Below, piece after piece: positions 379 through 64,000 of a DNA stretch of 64,000 nucleotides. Positions within the stretch are counted from its first letter, which is position 1; each line of letters begins with the position of its first letter. This DNA comes from Natronoarchaeum rubrum. Its GTDB lineage: Archaea; Halobacteriota; Halobacteria; Halobacteriales; Natronoarchaeaceae. Under the pieces are notes generated by a model. It was given only the letters and a program-made list of their open reading frames with translations, was not told the origin of the DNA and ran no database searches. The translations under genes were made by a program, and so were the position numbers. Location: contig NZ_JANHDP010000008.1 of assembly GCF_024494695.1 (NCBI RefSeq), positions 1-64,000 on the forward strand, in the 5' to 3' direction.

Positions 379-1335
379 TTACAGTTCGACCGCGTCCTCG
401 TCGTTGTAGGAACTCAACGACTGCGGGACGTTGACGACGGTGACGGCCTGGCTGCCGGACTGGGTGACAATCCGGACTGTTGCTTCTTCTCCTTCCTCCA
501 GATCTCGGAGGTCATTGTCGCTTTCGTCAGCGAGGTCAACCGTGATGGTGAAGCGGTCCTGCCGGTCGGTCAGAACAGGCACGGTGTTGTCGGGGTCGGT
601 CGTACCTTCGACTGCGAACGAGCCCACCTCGATGGACTCAGAGTAGCCGAGCGTGGCCTCGCCGTCGGGGCCGATGTACTCGACGGACGCGCCTTCGAGG
701 TCGATCTCGTTGGCGCCCGGCGACTGCATCACCGTCATGTTGATCCTGCCGATCTGGTTGCGGAGCGGTTCCTTAACAACCAAATTAGTAGCCAGATCGA
801 CGGACGTGCCATCAGACATGGTACTACTCACTGCAGTATCATTGTCGGGATTCCATTCGACACTGACAGTGTCTGCACCACTCGTGTCGATAGCATCATT
901 GAGATCAATCGTATCGCCCGGTTCAATGGTGTCCTGTTCGTCAGTCCAGACAGTGACGTAATCAGTCGACTCTGAGTCGTCAGTTTCCGTGATAGTTATG
1001 GTGCCGTTCCCGGACCAGAATGTTTGGCTATTAGTGTCATCATACGTAAGAACGTTTGCAGAGTTATCGTAGGTAAACGACGGGGTCCCTGTGCTCTCTT
1101 CAGTTTCCGTCGAAATCTCGCCGATGGAACTGATGACGAGCACTTGGTTCGACACCTGTGCCTCGGAGTCTTCGCTCGTCGCAGACGCCTGGTTTTGGAG
1201 GTAGCCGGCGGTGTTGATCAGTACGCTCGCTGCGATCGCGGCGACCAGGATCATCGCGATGAAGATGATCAGGGTCTCGATCCCGACCTGACCGCGGTCG
1301 GCATCTCTCGAAAGGTCTGGAATTGTGATGTCCAT
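379..1335 (-). CDS. Archaellin, archaellum filament subunit
   Basis: 318-residue filament protein. Residues 1-20 hold the class III signal peptide ending [11 protein letters not shown], cleaved by the archaellar prepilin peptidase; residues 20-45 are the hydrophobic assembly helix, followed by the polar stretch that starts the globular surface domain. The rest is acidic, rich in Asp, Glu, Ser and Thr, with N-glycosylation sequons such as NGT and NMT, as expected for a filament exposed to high salt. It follows the paralog cut at the window start and lies on the opposite strand to the small ArlD/E-like gene at 1620. The start is fixed by alignment with the paralog and by the shared leader. T-rich sequence on the minus strand at 345-356 is a plausible terminator. 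Confidence 0.95.
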
Positions 1336-1400
1336 GCTGTGTATCCTCGCGTTGATTATCCGGCTGCTCTCTTGGCAGCCGTTGGAGTCCAGTTACTAGG

Positions 1401-1412
1401 TATATGAAAAAA
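1401..1412 (-). promoter_or_regulatory. Promoter box of the second archaellin gene
   Basis: The same TATATGAAAAAA (plus-strand reading) as at 199-210, again 66 bases before the start codon at 1335. A 6-base inverted repeat, GCCCTA and TAGGGC around six bases, lies further upstream at about 1451-1468. Confidence 0.6.
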
Positions 1413-1619
1413 GCGTGCAGCCTACGAACGTAGGACCGCTACTGCAGTCGGCCCTATCTAATTAGGGCGAGTGCCAAGAAAGCCGACAGAGGTCCTCTTC
1501 TGTACGTTCTTCCCCGCGAGTGAGCAAGTACCAGTATCGACGTTATCCCGCGATCGTTACGAATAGTTGTCAAAAAGTAATAAACCAGTTCGGATAATGT
1601 GTGCGCCCAAGAACGTCGA

Positions 1620-2171
1620 ATGAGCAAGCACCATCCTAGCTCCGGCGCCCGGGCCGACGGCCCGCATCTGGAGAGTCTCGACGGCACGGCCGCGGAACAG
1701 GTCACCGCGATGGCGTGGGCGCGCTATCTCGGAAGCGCCTTCGGATCAAGCGGCGCGATCCGCGCGCTGCGGTACTACCGCGACGTGAGCTGGATCAGTC
1801 AGGACGTGTACCACACGATGGTCGACTACGTACGCGGGCTCTCGGTCGACGAACTCACCGAGGAGGAAGACGCTATCGACCGCGAGACCAGCGTGGAGTC
1901 GCTCCGAGACACGCCGTACGAGCGCCACGCGCGTTCGCTGGAGTTCGTCGCAGCGATCGCCGGCGACAGCATCGAGCGCGATCTCACGACGCTGCGCCTC
2001 GGCGACGAAGCGATGGGTGCCGCGACGGGCATCGGCGGCGGGAGCGCCGACAACGGCGGCGTCCCGAAGGAGAACCAGTGCGCTGCGACGACCGAGGGCG
2101 GCGAGCCGTGCACGCGACCCGCGCTCGGCGACAGCGAGTACTGTCACGAACACCACGACGCCGACGAGTGA
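1620..2171 (+). CDS. Small ArlD/E-domain protein with C-terminal zinc-binding motif
   Basis: 183 residues, divergent from the archaellins. The central part, from MAWARYLGSAFGSSGAIRAL through YYRDVSWISQDVYHTMVDYV, matches the FlaD/FlaE (ArlD/E) fold: a WxxYL-like start, a YY(R/D) segment, then 'WIS..V...+..Y+RGL'. ArlD/E proteins form the cytoplasmic ring around the archaellum motor. Unlike classical ArlD/E, this one ends in a metal-site pattern, C-AATTEGGEP-C then Y-C-HEHH. The ATG at 1620 is chosen over GTG at 1599 because an AT-rich box (AAAAAGTAATAAA, about 1571-1583) would start transcription close to 1605. The fold assignment is by recognition of conserved residues. An accessory or adaptor role in the motor is inferred. 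Confidence 0.7.
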   Translation: MSKHHPSSGARADGPHLESLDGTAAEQVTAMAWARYLGSAFGSSGAIRALRYYRDVSWISQDVYHTMVDYVRGLSVDELTEEEDAIDRETSVESLRDTPYERHARSLEFVAAIAGDSIERDLTTLRLGDEAMGAATGIGGGSADNGGVPKENQCAATTEGGEPCTRPALGDSEYCHEHHDADE

Positions 2172-2251
2172 TCGCGCTTCTCTCCATTTCCTACCGCTGG
2201 TAGCGACTGCAGCGGTCGGTACATCGAACTGGTCGTCCGGGGGCGACCCGG

Positions 2252-3997
2252 TCAGATCGAGATGATCGAGTTCATCAGGAACGTCGTGACCCACGCGATG
2301 ATGCCGCTCATCCAGACCATCGCGACGAAATGCGTCAGCGCGTTGAGCGAGTGGCCCCGGTCGACGATCCGGATCATCATCGACGAGAGGAACGCGTTGA
2401 GCAACACCGCGACGAAGAGGTAAAATCGGATCTCCGGAACGTCGTACACTTCAGGGTGGAGCAGCGCTCCCATCCCGGTCTGGGCGAGATCCATCTCGGC
2501 GGTGATGTCCGTGAGCAGTTCGACGATCTCCAGGCCGACGAAAAAGGAGAACGTGCTGGTCGCGGTGATGCCGTAGATGACGCCGATGATCGTGCCGGTC
2601 TCCTGGGTTCGCATCTGCCGGAGGTTCAGCACCTCCGTGAAGTTCTTCTCGATGAGGTTGCCCAGTTGGCGGGGCTCACCGCCCATCCGGCGGCCGACGA
2701 CGTACATGTCGCTGAACTTCTGGATCAGGTAGGAGCCGGTCTCGGCGGCGAAGTAGCGCCAGGCCAGCGTCGAGTTGATCTGCATCGCGAGGCGCTTGTA
2801 CAGGTCGTCGACGTTGTCGGTCAGGGCGCCGAAGTCCTTCCGGCGGAGACTCGACAGCACCGACGACGAGGAACTCTGCTTGACGCTCTCGACCGCGCCG
2901 AGCGCACGAATGAAGGAGGGGAACTCGGAGTCACGGCCCTTGACGCGGGCCTCCTCGCGCCGGATGACGAGGCCGGGAATCAACAGCGGCGTAAAGGGGA
3001 CCGCCATCCAGATGGCGTCGGGCAGGCCGGCGCGGGGGATAATCCCGTCCAGCGCGAGGTACGTGACCGCGGCGAGCAGCAGGCACAGGCCGGTCCCGAC
3101 GATCAGCGCGATTCGCAGGCGGACGTTGCGCTCCAATGCGATCCCCTCCGCGTGGCTCCAGATGGGGTCCTGGGGAGCGATGTTGTTCATCACGTACAGG
3201 AACGCCAGTTGGACGAAGAAATACAGCGTGATCACGCCCGACAGCGCGATCATCGGATCGACGCCGATCAGGAACGGCAGGAGGATCGCGAACACGAGCC
3301 CGAACGTCGTCGAGTTGATCACCGAGAGGTAGACGTCCTTCATGACGCTCAGGCGGTCGAGCTGGTTCTCGTAGCGCGTTTTGAAGTTCCGGAGGATGTT
3401 GTCCTGCTCGGACAGCAGGAACTCCGACATCGGCTGGCCCGCGCCGACCGTGTACGCCAGCCGTTCGAGGAAGTCCTCCATGAGCGGGCTGGCGACGCGC
3501 CTGGCGCGGAACCGACAGGCGTCGTCGAGGCTCTGATTCCAGGTGTCGATCAGCGCGACGATGTGGCCCATCTCCGTCGCGATCGCCTCGTACTCGTCTT
3601 CCTTCGAGAGCGTTCGGAACACTTCCACGCGGTCGATGTTCGTCGTCGACAGCACCGTGATGTGGGTGATGAAGAGGTGGAATCGCTCGCGGACCTGCTG
3701 TTGCTTGCGGTCCTGCATCAGCTTGGGGTAGACGACCGCCACGAACGGCAACAGCAGCGCGAGCATCACGACCGGTCCCGTCGCGACGCCGGGGATCGGC
3801 AGGAAGAAGGGCAGCAACATCACGCCGAACGCGCCCAGTATCGACGGGAACAGCACCGCAAGGAGGTACCGCCGGATCGACATGTCCATCTGCTCGTAGG
3901 CGAGCAGCAGCGACCTGATCGCCTCCTTGACGTCGACTGACTCACCCTCGTCTCTTCGGGCCGAGTCGGTCGTCGCCGCGTCGGAGCTGGTCGCCAT
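2252..3997 (-). CDS. arlJ: Archaellum assembly platform protein ArlJ (FlaJ)
   Basis: 581-residue polytopic membrane protein of the type II/IV secretion GspF family that anchors the ArlI ATPase and passes archaellins into the filament. Two similar halves are visible, each with a cytoplasmic helical domain (residues about 95-215 and 355-480) followed by paired membrane helices; further helices occur near 45-90 and 285-345 and the C-terminus is hydrophobic. Length fits haloarchaeal ArlJ. It is the last gene of the motor set on this strand. The 114-base gap to arlI upstream is the only sizeable gap in the run and contains an AACGTTAACC stretch, so a secondary promoter is possible. Confidence 0.95.
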   Translation of the reverse strand: MATSSDAATTDSARRDEGESVDVKEAIRSLLLAYEQMDMSIRRYLLAVLFPSILGAFGVMLLPFFLPIPGVATGPVVMLALLLPFVAVVYPKLMQDRKQQQVRERFHLFITHITVLSTTNIDRVEVFRTLSKEDEYEAIATEMGHIVALIDTWNQSLDDACRFRARRVASPLMEDFLERLAYTVGAGQPMSEFLLSEQDNILRNFKTRYENQLDRLSVMKDVYLSVINSTTFGLVFAILLPFLIGVDPMIALSGVITLYFFVQLAFLYVMNNIAPQDPIWSHAEGIALERNVRLRIALIVGTGLCLLLAAVTYLALDGIIPRAGLPDAIWMAVPFTPLLIPGLVIRREEARVKGRDSEFPSFIRALGAVESVKQSSSSSVLSSLRRKDFGALTDNVDDLYKRLAMQINSTLAWRYFAAETGSYLIQKFSDMYVVGRRMGGEPRQLGNLIEKNFTEVLNLRQMRTQETGTIIGVIYGITATSTFSFFVGLEIVELLTDITAEMDLAQTGMGALLHPEVYDVPEIRFYLFVAVLLNAFLSSMMIRIVDRGHSLNALTHFVAMVWMSGIIAWVTTFLMNSIISI

Positions 3998-37416: not shown

Positions 37417-37500
37417 GCGAGGGTAGCCAAGCCCGGAAACGGCGGCGGACTCAAGATCCGCTCCTGTAGAGGTCCAAGGGTTCAAATCCCTTCCCTCGCA
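37417..37500 (+). tRNA. tRNA-Leu (anticodon CAA)
   Basis: 84-base class II tRNA. The acceptor GCGAGGG pairs with CCCTCGC plus discriminator A; anticodon stem GCGGA/TCCGC with loop CTCAAGA gives CAA; a long variable arm (about TCCTGTAGAGGT) and T-arm AAGGG/CCCTT with TTCAAAT are present. There is no intron. A TTAAAC box at 37383-37388 is the likely promoter. Its last 21 bases are repeated exactly 102 bases downstream. Confidence 0.95.
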
Positions 37501-37602
37501 TCGCCGCGAGGCGCACGAACGCGCCGAGCGAGATGCACAGAGGGAGGGATTGAACGAGAGGGCGGCTTCGCCGACCGCGTAGTTCAAATCCCTTCCCTCG
37601 CA
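37501..37602 (+). repeat. tRNA-Leu trailer element with duplicated tRNA 3' end
   Basis: The last 21 bases of the tRNA (37480-37500) reappear at 37582-37602. Between them: a GCCGCGAG box, a CGAGCGA box, an inverted near-copy of the T-arm/acceptor (about 37538-37555, AGGGAGGGATTGAAC), then a small hairpin CGGC-TTC-GCCG. The inverted and direct T-arm copies can pair into a long stem. The tRNA-Thr trailer at 55066-55169 has the same order. Confidence 0.75.
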
Positions 37603-51432: not shown

Positions 51433-54018
51433 ATGCCACACGACAATGACGGTCACGACGAGGCATCGAAAGCGGACGCGTCGCGGCGAACGTTCATGAA
51501 GGCGACGGGGGCGGCGACGGCGACGGCGGCGATCGGCGCCGGCGAGGCCGCCGCGGGCGGCGACGACCACGAAGACGACGTAGACGAACTGCTCGACTCG
51601 CTATCGCTCGAACAGAAGGCCGCCCAGATGACGCAGGTCGCGATCGGGACGTTCGACCCCGATTCGGACGCGATCCCGGATAGCTTCGGCGTCGACACGC
51701 TCGGCGAGTACTTCTCGAAGCTCGGCGTCGGGTCGATCCTCTCGGGAGGCGCCGAACCGCCGAGCTTCGACGCCCAGACGGTCGTCGAAGGGATCAACGA
51801 CCTTCAGGCGTACAACCTCGAACACGCCGACCACGGGATTCCGTTCCTCTACGGCGTCGACGCGACCCACGGCAACGTCCTACTGGAGGGCGCGACGTCG
51901 CTGCCCCAGCGACTGAACATGGGGTCGACGCGGGATCCGGAACTCGTCGCCGAAGCCGAGCGCCACACGAGCGACGCCACGGCGGCGATGGGCGCCCACT
52001 GGACGTTCGCGCCGACGACAGATCTCCAGCGCGACCCGCGCTGGGGCCGGTTCTTCGAGGGGATCAGCGAGGATCCGAAGTTAGAGGGCGACGTCTCGCG
52101 TGCGCGCGCTCGAGCGCTGGAGGACGACGACCGGATGGCCGCCTGCGTCAAGCACTTCGGCGCGTACTCGATCCCGAACAACGGCAACGATCGGGCGCCG
52201 GCGTCGACGTCGATGCGGGATCTCCGGACGAACCTATTCCCGCCGTATCAGGAGGCGCTGGAGACCGAACCCGGCACGGTGATGGTCAACAGCGGCGCGG
52301 TCAACGGCAAGCCCGCCCACGCCTCCCACTGGCTGCTAACCGAGGTGCTCCGCGAGCGCTACGGGTTCGAGGGGCTGATCCTCTCGGACTGGGACGACCT
52401 CTATCGGATGCTCTCGAACCACGACTACGCGCCCGACTTCCGGACCGCGACGAAGGAGGCGATCAACGCGGGCGTGGACATGTACATGATCGGCAACGGC
52501 GGCACCGCGCCGGGGCCGGTCCAGTTCATCGATACCGTCGTGAGCCTGGTCGAGGACGGCGAGATCCCGATGGAGCGCGTCGACGACGCGGTCCGGCGGA
52601 TCCTCGAGCTGAAGGTCGATCTGGGCCTGTTCGAGGAGCCCACCGTCGACGAGTCCCGCATCGGGGGCGCCCTCGGCGGCGCACAGGAGGCCTCCGAGCA
52701 GCTCGCCAAGGAGTCGATGGTCCTGCTGGAGAACGGCGACGAGACGCTCCCGCTGTCGGGCGACGAGGACGTGCTGCTGACCGGCCCCGGCGTCGACGGG
52801 AACGGCAACAACACCCGGGCGCTGATGCAACACGGCGGCTGGTCGCTGGGCTGGCAGGGCCCGAGCGCGGGCGGCCCCTACCCGCGCCAGAACCTGCTCG
52901 TCGACGAGCTGGAGAGCCGCGTCGACGACCTGACCCACGTCCCCACGACCTACGAGAACTCGACGTGGTGGGCCGGCCAGGGCGACGGCCAGAACCAGCA
53001 GAGCGACGAGAACGGGAACTTCGACTTCACCGACGAGCAGGAAGCCGACGTCCGGTCGGCCGCGCCGGACGCCGACGCCGTCGTCGTCGTGATCGGCGAG
53101 GGGTGTCACAACGAGGGGTTCGGCGACCGCGACGAGCTCGTCCTCGACGAGGCCCAGCAGGAACTCGTCGACGTCGTCGACGAGGAGACCGACAACGACA
53201 CGCCCGTCGTCGGCGTCATGCTCGCCGGCGCGCCCCGCGGCGAGTCCGAGACGTTCGATCAGCTCGACGCTCTCCTGTTCGCCGGTGAACCCGGCAGCGA
53301 CGGCGGCGTCGCCATCGCGGAGACGCTCGTCGGCGAGTACAACCCCTCGGGCAAGCTCGCCTTCAGCTGGCCCCGGAACCCCGGAACGCCAGTCGGAACG
53401 GTCCCGATGCCGTACAACCGCTACCCGCCGACGTCGACGGGCGCGACCGACAACACCCCGCTGTACGAGTTCGGCCATGGGCTGAGCTACACCGACTTCG
53501 AATACTCGAACCTCTCGGTGACCCCCAGTTCGGTCAAAGACCCCGCCAAGGCCGAGACGGTGACGGTCAGCGTCGACGTCGAGAACACCGGGGACGTGGC
53601 CGGCGAGCACGTCGTCGAGGTGTTCAACACCCAGTCCTACGGCTCGGTGCTCCAGCCGCTCCGCCGACTGCTGGGCTACGAGCGGATCCACCTCGACGCC
53701 GGAGAGACTCAAACCGTGAAGATGGAGGCCGACCTCTCGGCGCTGGAGGTCGTACCCGGCGACGTGCCTGCTATTCAAGCCAAGATCGTCGAGCCGGGCG
53801 ACTACGAGCTCTCGGTCGGCGATCTGACGTCGACGCTGACGATCAAGAGTGCCGGGTCGATCACCGGCAACGGCCCGCTGGTGAGCCTCTACGACACTGA
53901 CGACGACGGCCACATCACCGGGAAGGACATTCGAGAGCTTCTCGGGAACGTCTGGAAGGACGACGATCACGGGCGAGGCAAAAAGAAGGGCCACGACAAG
54001 GGACACGGACACGACTGA
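51433..54018 (+). CDS. Tat-exported glycoside hydrolase family 3 enzyme with EF-hand-like tail
   Basis: 861 residues. Twin-arginine signal (SRRTFMKATGAATATAAIGA, about 17-37). GH3 N-domain (50-420): GVDATHGNVLLEGAT, KHFGAY (substrate-binding Lys-His), and nucleophile Asp in LILSDWDD near 319. GH3 C-domain (440-660) has GEGCHNEGFGDRDEL, where a Glu could be the acid/base, and a fibronectin-III-like domain (TVSVDVENTGDVAGEHVVEV, 700-790). A single calcium-loop (DTDDDGHITGKD, about 822-833) resembles half a dockerin, before a His/Lys/Asp tail. It likely releases glucose or xylose from beta-glycosides outside the cell. Stands alone. Confidence 0.93.
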   Translation: MPHDNDGHDEASKADASRRTFMKATGAATATAAIGAGEAAAGGDDHEDDVDELLDSLSLEQKAAQMTQVAIGTFDPDSDAIPDSFGVDTLGEYFSKLGVGSILSGGAEPPSFDAQTVVEGINDLQAYNLEHADHGIPFLYGVDATHGNVLLEGATSLPQRLNMGSTRDPELVAEAERHTSDATAAMGAHWTFAPTTDLQRDPRWGRFFEGISEDPKLEGDVSRARARALEDDDRMAACVKHFGAYSIPNNGNDRAPASTSMRDLRTNLFPPYQEALETEPGTVMVNSGAVNGKPAHASHWLLTEVLRERYGFEGLILSDWDDLYRMLSNHDYAPDFRTATKEAINAGVDMYMIGNGGTAPGPVQFIDTVVSLVEDGEIPMERVDDAVRRILELKVDLGLFEEPTVDESRIGGALGGAQEASEQLAKESMVLLENGDETLPLSGDEDVLLTGPGVDGNGNNTRALMQHGGWSLGWQGPSAGGPYPRQNLLVDELESRVDDLTHVPTTYENSTWWAGQGDGQNQQSDENGNFDFTDEQEADVRSAAPDADAVVVVIGEGCHNEGFGDRDELVLDEAQQELVDVVDEETDNDTPVVGVMLAGAPRGESETFDQLDALLFAGEPGSDGGVAIAETLVGEYNPSGKLAFSWPRNPGTPVGTVPMPYNRYPPTSTGATDNTPLYEFGHGLSYTDFEYSNLSVTPSSVKDPAKAETVTVSVDVENTGDVAGEHVVEVFNTQSYGSVLQPLRRLLGYERIHLDAGETQTVKMEADLSALEVVPGDVPAIQAKIVEPGDYELSVGDLTSTLTIKSAGSITGNGPLVSLYDTDDDGHITGKDIRELLGNVWKDDDHGRGKKKGHDKGHGHD

Positions 54019-55065: not shown

Positions 55066-55169
55066 AGCCGGTGGGGGGATTTGAACCACGGTCGCAGCAA
55101 AGCTGCTCTCTGATTCAAATACCCAACGAGACATATTTGTCGCTCGCGGGGTTGCTCGCGGCAAAAGTA
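55066..55169 (-). repeat. tRNA-Thr trailer element with duplicated tRNA 3' end
   Basis: 22 bases covering the tRNA-Thr acceptor and T-arm 3' half (55170-55191) reappear exactly at 55066-55087, 104 bases away. Read on the minus strand the spacer contains GCCGCGAG, CGCGAGCGA, an inverted T-arm-like GGGTATTTGAAT, then GCAGC-TTT-GCTGC hairpin and GACCG, in the same order as the tRNA-Leu trailer. Confidence 0.75.
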
Positions 55170-55244
55170 AGCCGGTGGGGGGATTTGAACCCCCGGCCTA
55201 TTCCTTACGAAGGAATCGCTCTAGCCAGTCTGAGCTACACCGGC
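55170..55244 (-). tRNA. tRNA-Thr (anticodon CGU)
   Basis: 75 bases. Acceptor GCCGGTG pairs with CACCGGC, discriminator T; D-arm GCTCAGACTGGCTAGAGC; anticodon stem ATTCC/GGAAT with loop TTCGTAA giving CGT; T-arm CGGGG/CCCCC-type stem with TTCAAAT. No intron. It follows the Trm5-like gene's stop by about 90 bases in the opposite orientation group and has an AT-rich TATTTTG stretch (55258-55266) as a candidate promoter. Confidence 0.95.
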
Positions 55245-63820: not shown

Positions 63821-63894
63821 GGGCCAATAGCTCAATTAGGTTGAGCGCTCGGCTGATAACCGGGAGGTTCGCGGTTCAAATCCGCGTTGGCCCA
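63821..63894 (+). tRNA. tRNA-Ile (anticodon GAU)
   Basis: 74 bases. Acceptor GGGCCAA pairs with TTGGCCC, discriminator A; anticodon stem CTCGG/CCGGG with loop CTGATAA gives GAT; T-arm GCGGTTCAAATCCGC. A CTTAAA box at 63784-63789 is the promoter. No intron. No copy of its 3' end is visible in the 106 bases left in the window, where no gene was recognised either. Confidence 0.95.
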
Positions 63895-64000
63895 CTTCCT
63901 TTCCACGATTTGCTCGGTAGAGGAGTAGCCGTCGAGCCGTATTCTGGCCATCGAGGAACTCGCCGGTCACGTTGCGATCGTCCAACTCGAGTAGCATTCC

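Follow-up and report, generated by a model that had tools for sequence, protein, structure and literature searches.

The trailers of the tRNA-Thr(CGU) and tRNA-Leu(CAA) genes in the window (the whole 64,000-nucleotide stretch of Natronoarchaeum rubrum DNA analysed here) are members of a previously unnoticed family of non-coding units of about 100 nt, here designated T-loop cassettes, which is present in most of the haloarchaea examined. Each unit follows the order tRNA nucleotides 54-73 (T), hairpin 1, an inverted copy of nucleotides 54-62 (T'), a core hairpin and a further copy of nucleotides 54-73, and units are often found in tandem, forming arrays. This anatomy, the tandem arrays, the presence, absence or replacement of whole units between related loci and the exchange of hairpin 1 or core at T' were all directly observed. 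We rate it only a little short of probable that the window trailers are copies of small mobile cassettes, non-coding, for which T-loop sequences in either orientation are the places of recombination. The units amount to a plentiful family of structured DNA next to the tRNA genes of an archaeal class that is itself well studied, and to a rare case of an element whose sequence visibly follows each adjoining host gene, and they would account for many of the short tRNA 3'-end fragments close to haloarchaeal tRNAs. The first-pass annotation had suspected an undescribed element, and in the literature searched, mostly papers outside subscription, no paper whose title or abstract describes such units was found.

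That annotation had noted an exact 22-nt repeat of the tRNA-Thr 3' end (55066-55087 and 55170-55191), which was confirmed on the minus strand at a distance of 104 nt, and a trailer of the same element order behind tRNA-Leu(CAA), also confirmed, with a period of 102 nt. The inverted T-arm piece, the hairpin and the direct copy that it named were all found; the order of elements stood, but the first part of the spacer proved to be a separate hairpin that had been overlooked. The features are as follows.

55170 to 55244, minus strand: tRNA-Thr(CGU) gene, with nucleotides 54-73 (T) at 55170-55189
55086 to 55169, minus strand: Thr cassette body of 84 nt (hairpin 1, T' and core), R1 score 76.9 bits (a copy within the model)
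55141 to 55162, minus strand: Thr cassette hairpin 1, GCCGCGAG...GCGAGCG, taken from the fold
55114 to 55122, minus strand: Thr cassette T', GTATTTGAA, complement of T-loop nucleotides 54-62 with 1 mismatch
55086 to 55113, minus strand: Thr cassette core hairpin of type A, TCAGAGAG-CAGCTTTGCTG-CGACCGTGG
55066 to 55085, minus strand: Thr T copy, an exact repeat of tRNA-Thr nucleotides 54-73
37417 to 37500, plus strand: tRNA-Leu(CAA) gene, with nucleotides 54-73 (T) at 37481-37500
37501 to 37582, plus strand: Leu cassette body of 82 nt, R1 score 57.8 bits (a copy within the model)
37546 to 37554, plus strand: Leu cassette T', GGGATTGAA, 1 base short of the exact complement
37583 to 37602, plus strand: Leu T copy, an exact repeat of tRNA-Leu nucleotides 54-73

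The global alignment of the Thr and Leu spacers (81 and 82 nt) gave a score of 13.0, against a mean of -3.4 (SD 3.5) for dinucleotide-shuffled sequences, and none of 2000 shuffles reached it; the homology claimed for the two trailers thus withstood the comparison with shuffled sequence. The third tRNA in the window (Ile, 63821-63895) carries no such trailer. Curated Rfam models at gathering score detected only the three tRNAs in the whole window, the units matching no known RNA family.

Haloarchaea were surveyed with a covariance model, R1, derived from 17 units: 2 from the window and 15 from other haloarchaea. Around the gene for a tRNA-methyltransferase-like protein neighbouring tRNA-Thr, 80 loci were kept of 125 found, and tRNA-Thr(CGU) was detected in 77 of them; the 80 relatives of this protein are all haloarchaeal, in keeping with a haloarchaeal origin of the window. 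In the search of the window and these 80 loci, R1 gave a sense-strand match directly behind tRNA-Thr in 38 loci at E<=0.011 (15 in the model, 23 outside it); since the units are near-palindromic, some of them are also covered by weaker matches on the antisense strand, and one match of E 0.097 lies elsewhere. When 59 genomes to which loci of this set belong were searched, R1 matched 12 of 12 haloarchaeal genomes at E<=0.01, with 3-32 matches per genome, and 46 of 47 further haloarchaeal genomes at E<=1e-4. The covariance-model search that had been proposed as a check therefore detects further copies in 58 of 59 haloarchaeal genomes, behind many kinds of tRNA. The exception is Halobacterium salinarum, where two decayed units (L284, L289) were recognized by eye among 11 tails inspected. 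Of 196 genomes sampled evenly across the phylum, 31 were matched; the 20 non-matching genomes listed are of 1.1-3.2 Mb and gave 128-714 first-look candidates, compared with roughly 1000-3000 for almost every matching genome, which fits, without proving, that the non-matching genomes are non-haloarchaea. Of the repeated tRNA-targeting element proposed earlier, the element is well supported, and an insertion chemistry of its own directed at tRNAs is putative.

The units vary between and within genomes. In one genome of 1.9 Mb (G192; its loci 53-58% GC) they are very short, with bodies down to 46 nt. Among 45 distinct tRNA loci of genome G253, 24 carry both T copy and T', 5 the T copy only and 16 neither by the test applied, some of these 16 (Trp, Lys-ttt) holding diverged units by eye. 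Some trailers have hairpin 1 without T' (L104), which speaks against the cassette reading.

The anatomy was scored on 91 tails behind many tRNA kinds, mostly picked by R1 match and with Ile, Asn and short tails excluded beforehand: T' was located in 81, and the T copy in 78 of those 81. Complementarity of T' to the local tRNA was 0.84-0.99 at nucleotides 54-62 in the 81 units, a set retaining at least three wrong T' assignments (L203, L212 Val, L214); it decayed at nucleotides 63-65 and was 0.23-0.35 at 66-73, near background beyond 65. Since nucleotides 54-61 were used in locating T', only nucleotide 62 onward is free of bias. The T copy spans nucleotides 54-73 and then ends, and the agreement of the terminal copy with the local tRNA, put forward as a check by the first-pass annotation, is 0.83-1.0 per position at nucleotides 58-73. 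The dip in identity at nucleotides 55-57 is due to a recurrent variant with an extra base after nucleotide 57 (TTCAC-AATCC), 11 of 92 right junctions reading GTTCAC behind A57 tRNAs. Bodies are 74-185 nt long with a median of 96 (118 units, bodies of 50-190 nt being kept). Core types are few: type A is CAGGGAG-stem-CGACCGTGG and others carry GAGGTTCTGCG... or GTCGCAGC...GACCGTC, the inner stem being free to vary and the bulged base conserved. Terminal inverted repeats, as in MITEs or SMR-A, were absent by inspection, as the unit begins with hairpin 1 and ends with the core, the main inverted pair being T'/T with T' internal. At L100:1483-1612 a unit was found whose upstream gene matches no tRNA or Rfam family; its shared repeat begins at AATCC, suggesting a junction at nucleotides 57/58.

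The sequence of T' was found to match the local T-loop. In 90 tails, T' had 180 mismatches to the local T-arm, compared with 285.5 +/- 8.5 after permutation (minimum 255 of 5000), and the local tRNA was the best or tied-best match in only 40 of the 90, because T-arms are alike. Base 57 was complemented by T' at 72 of 76 loci where T' was located with at most 2 of 9 mismatches, and at 23 of 24 loci of two genomes in a replicate with position 57 masked. Rare T-loops were likewise followed, T59 in 4 of 4 loci and C60 in 3 of 3, as was nucleotide 62 at Lys and Val of Natrialba. A weak extended complement at nucleotides 66-73 (2.32 versus 1.88 +/- 0.10) equals the maximum of 1000 permutations.

The main rival, unlikely in our estimate, is that the unit acts as RNA, namely as a structured pre-tRNA trailer co-transcribed with the tRNA, in which T' would be an anti-T-loop strand that the T copy further downstream keeps away from the tRNA, the hairpins would bind protein or steer 3' processing, and duplication or loss would proceed by ordinary recombination between repeats. 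The maturation of tRNA 3' ends in archaea would then have an additional layer. An RNA role is consistent with the maintenance of T'-T complementarity as T-loops vary and with the replacement of tandem G.A pairs by Watson-Crick pairs: hairpin 1 contains tandem G.A mismatches in many relatives, and these alternate with Watson-Crick pairs among units in both hairpin 1 and core. It also agrees with the folding energies, the sense strand being the stabler under RNA parameters in 85 of 110 units (mean -4.1 kcal/mol) and under DNA parameters in 81 of 110; these comparisons are not independent since the units are related. Because the variable stem was misaligned in an initial MAFFT alignment, RNAalifold returned no structure for it. 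With a structure set by hand on the trimmed alignment, so that the pair counts lean towards it, paired cells, both-side-changed cells and the covariation score were above all 500 shuffles; the number of further standard pair types was not above that of the shuffles (343/500), and both-side-changed pairs were unexceptional (56/500 shuffles as high). The mismatches between T' and T (19 GT, 17 AC and 30 other of 990 cells) failed to separate the strands. Against an RNA role, the T copies match the tRNA through nucleotides 66-73, where T' has almost no complement beyond the weak residue, and pairing alone is therefore inadequate for the length of the T copy; moreover, many tRNAs are without units in the same genome, as in the 16 of 45 loci of G253 with neither T copy nor T'.

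In order to compare related loci, the 30 best-scoring tRNA loci each of Natrialba sp. SSL1 (G049) and N. hulunbeirensis (G011) were set side by side wherever their upstream flanks matched. A whole unit, bounded exactly by T, is present in one Natrialba only at Arg-tct, where it measures 102 nt, and at Pro-tgg, where it measures 120 nt; at Val-tac one has two extra proximal units. At Thr-cgt the units have been replaced and are entirely different, with downstream identity of 87-93%, and such wholly different orthologous units again argue against action as RNA. Modules also differ separately, as judged by eye: at Arg-cct and Gly-gcc, and in part at Val-gac, hairpin 1 differs and most of the core is preserved, while at Arg-tcg the core differs and hairpin 1 is kept, the breakpoints of these swaps lying at T'. 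Within a single genome, the Gly-tcc and Gly-ccc arrays (L127, L128) have hairpin-1 and core modules in common, combined differently; T' is GGGATTTGA in the Gly-tcc array and GGGAATTGA in two of the three Gly-ccc units, fitting each tRNA, the third being the shortened GGATTGA. Because close same-tRNA counterparts exist in G253, the Arg-tct and Val-tac differences are more likely losses by T-T recombination, and some presence/absence of units is probably loss through recombination between repeats. An apparent clean insertion at L021/L044 versus L070 was withdrawn, as the two genomes are only 75.9% identical over 145 nt upstream and as the downstream segment that they share at 95% has an 84% match over 120 nt behind a different tRNA, Trp, and is therefore probably mobile too.

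The separate behaviour of the two modules was analysed in 141 units of six genomes, 132 of which had a same-tRNA comparator (on average 4.8 of about 139 comparators). The best match lay at the corresponding tRNA in a different genome for 66 of 132 hairpins 1 and for 30 of 132 cores: hairpin 1 tends to keep to its own tRNA and cores cross more freely. This asymmetry is a prediction of exchange at T' and T, since acceptor-stem sequence is contained only in the hairpin-1 module. The 30 same-tRNA best hits for cores nevertheless exceed chance from 4.8 of 139 comparators, which counts against free core exchange, and as core types are few, similarity of cores across tRNAs could partly reflect constraint. 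Copies at different tRNAs of one genome are 72-89% identical (21 pairs covering at least 70% of the unit) and none is near-identical, so that recent jumps from tRNA to tRNA are not demonstrated. In arrays, the last copy was worse than the first in 16, better in 5 and tied in 25 (Wilcoxon p 0.09), which is no more than a slight trend.

As for the mechanism of cassette recombination, the site would be the T-loop sequence TTCRAATCC, used directly (T) and inverted (T'). Exchange between T and T would lead to the gain or loss of units, and exchange at T' and T to the swapping of cores between tRNAs; the module of acceptor-stem end plus hairpin 1 would remain tied to its own tRNA, because elsewhere it would spoil that tRNA. 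If the crossover needs identical bases, the agreement of base 57 (A or G) among T, T' and the tRNA would follow. Tyrosine recombinases are known to place their crossovers within tRNA T-loops, and for this reason a tyrosine recombinase acting in trans is, by analogy, the most likely candidate enzyme. If recombination at T-loops does take place, the units make up a cassette-shuffling system built upon tRNA genes.

A 2.9-kb element encoding a tyrosine integrase (PF00589) and a DUF7342 protein was observed integrated at tRNA-Gly(TCC), adjoining a unit (L220:820-3900; L247); its att copy is about 42 nt. The L220 integrase was considered as the enzyme of the units and rejected, R1 matching at only 2 of 10 integrase loci, one of them the query's own, and no recombinase linked to the units emerged from this Gly-adjacent integrase and its nine relatives, one of which lies at a unit. 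This element, and the common use of tRNA 3' ends as att sites, would suit the view that units are attR scars of decayed tRNA-integrating viruses or islands. We regard this as very unlikely, given that T' and two specific hairpins are common to many tRNAs and genomes and given the same scarcity of R1 matches at integrase loci; in addition, the best R1 match had an E of 0.67 in 69 viral-contig loci chosen by two core patterns, and blastn of the window Thr unit against phages and of the L023 unit against plasmids gave no match, the queries being short and the sensitivity low. With integrative elements that target tRNAs by tyrosine integrases the units share the junction at the T-loop and 3' end, the restored tRNA and a duplicated tRNA 3' end flanking the insert; they differ in that the typical unit, about 96 nt plus the 20-nt copy, is non-coding, holds an inverted T-loop copy and, with a median body of 96 nt, encodes no integrase.

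At Asn-gtt, N. hulunbeirensis has no unit, whereas the cassette of Natrialba sp. SSL1 is 720 nt long and includes a PF11645 gene (153 aa). In G253 an extra non-coding unit precedes such a gene-bearing cassette, whose hairpin 1 is partly inverted, and a gene-bearing cassette at tRNA-Asn is thus found in two genomes. Examination of 26 genomes gave 25 PF11645 homologues (L410-L434), all adjoining a tRNA: 18 Asp, 4 Asn and 1 each of Pro, Met and Leu, with at least two tRNA-Asp copies at 12 of the 18 Asp loci. I-SspI, which is encoded by a group I intron in a tRNA gene, is a member of the same family, and the PF11645 genes look like a tRNA-linked homing-endonuclease family in their own right. It is conceivable, if doubtful, that an enzyme such as this tRNA-linked PD-(D/E)XK protein cuts unit-free tRNA ends and that break repair copies the cassette in. 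Besides the gene within the 720-nt Asn cassette, the linkage of all 25 homologues to tRNAs and the kinship with I-SspI, R1 matches (E<=0.05) at 13 of the 25 loci, two only below 20 bits, speak for such homing. However, 7 of the 26 genomes have units without a PF11645 homologue at E<=1e-8, 19 of the 25 loci have no T copy after the gene, and a gene with a unit plus T copy after it, behind the same tRNA, was observed at Asn of the two genomes.

The gene-bearing cassette also bears on a comparison with integrons, in which the attC site is composed of an inverted box, a variable terminal hairpin, a bulged base and a direct box, with the box consensus RYYYAAC...GTTRRRY. The units resemble this system in their tandem cassettes with a short repeated site between them, in the same succession of inverted box, variable terminal hairpin, bulged base and direct box, in GTT at the direct box and in an open reading frame inside the cassette at one locus. 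In contrast, their boxes read GGATTYGAA...TTCRAATCC (T-loop) instead of GTTRRRY, with one extra C after GTT; their arrays lie at many tRNAs instead of one attI; and the 118 bodies of 74-185 nt (50-190 nt kept) are too short for ordinary genes. Despite the attC-like anatomy, the units are not filed as an integron because box consensus and setting differ. A haloarchaeal integron-like system, in which tRNA genes would receive, a single-stranded T'-core-T hairpin would be the site, and most cassettes would be empty and some carry genes such as that of the PF11645 nuclease, appears unlikely to us. The L220 integrase, the sole one examined at a unit, matches PF00589 only. Growth by repeat-unit-repeat at a fixed site gives the units the same topology as CRISPR arrays and casposons, the latter also using tRNA 3' ends, yet the units are homologous structured hairpins and not foreign spacers.

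Among known small repeats, SMR-A of Haloquadratum, mobile repeats of about 110 bp that enter the palindromes of IS605-type elements, comes near in being haloarchaeal and non-coding, with a palindromic target (PMC3119063, which also covers partial tRNA copies at prophages). Transposition of the units as hairpin-seeking single strands in the manner of SMR-A would agree with the similar size, the lack of an open reading frame and the T-arm as palindromic target, and still seems to us very improbable: by its description, SMR-A has inverted terminal repeats, is reported without target duplication and targets IS605/PATE palindromes, whereas the units duplicate 20 nt of tRNA and lie at tRNA ends.

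Other trailers were observed in the course of the survey. The tRNA-Thr tails of L029, L030, L017, L067 and L076 carry a different one, with two GGTTCAAAGC-like motifs about 60-80 nt apart, which is perhaps another tRNA-linked element, and the tRNA-Thr tails of L005, L012, L033 and L078, together with L270, show another type, in which TTACAATCC or TTCACAATCC stands a short way past the gene; it occurs with both Thr and Cys tRNAs. The window itself also encodes, at 51433-54018 on the plus strand, a predicted secreted glycosidase-like protein, the C-terminus of which is by eye dockerin-like (DTDDDGHITGKDIRELL), unusual in an archaeon.
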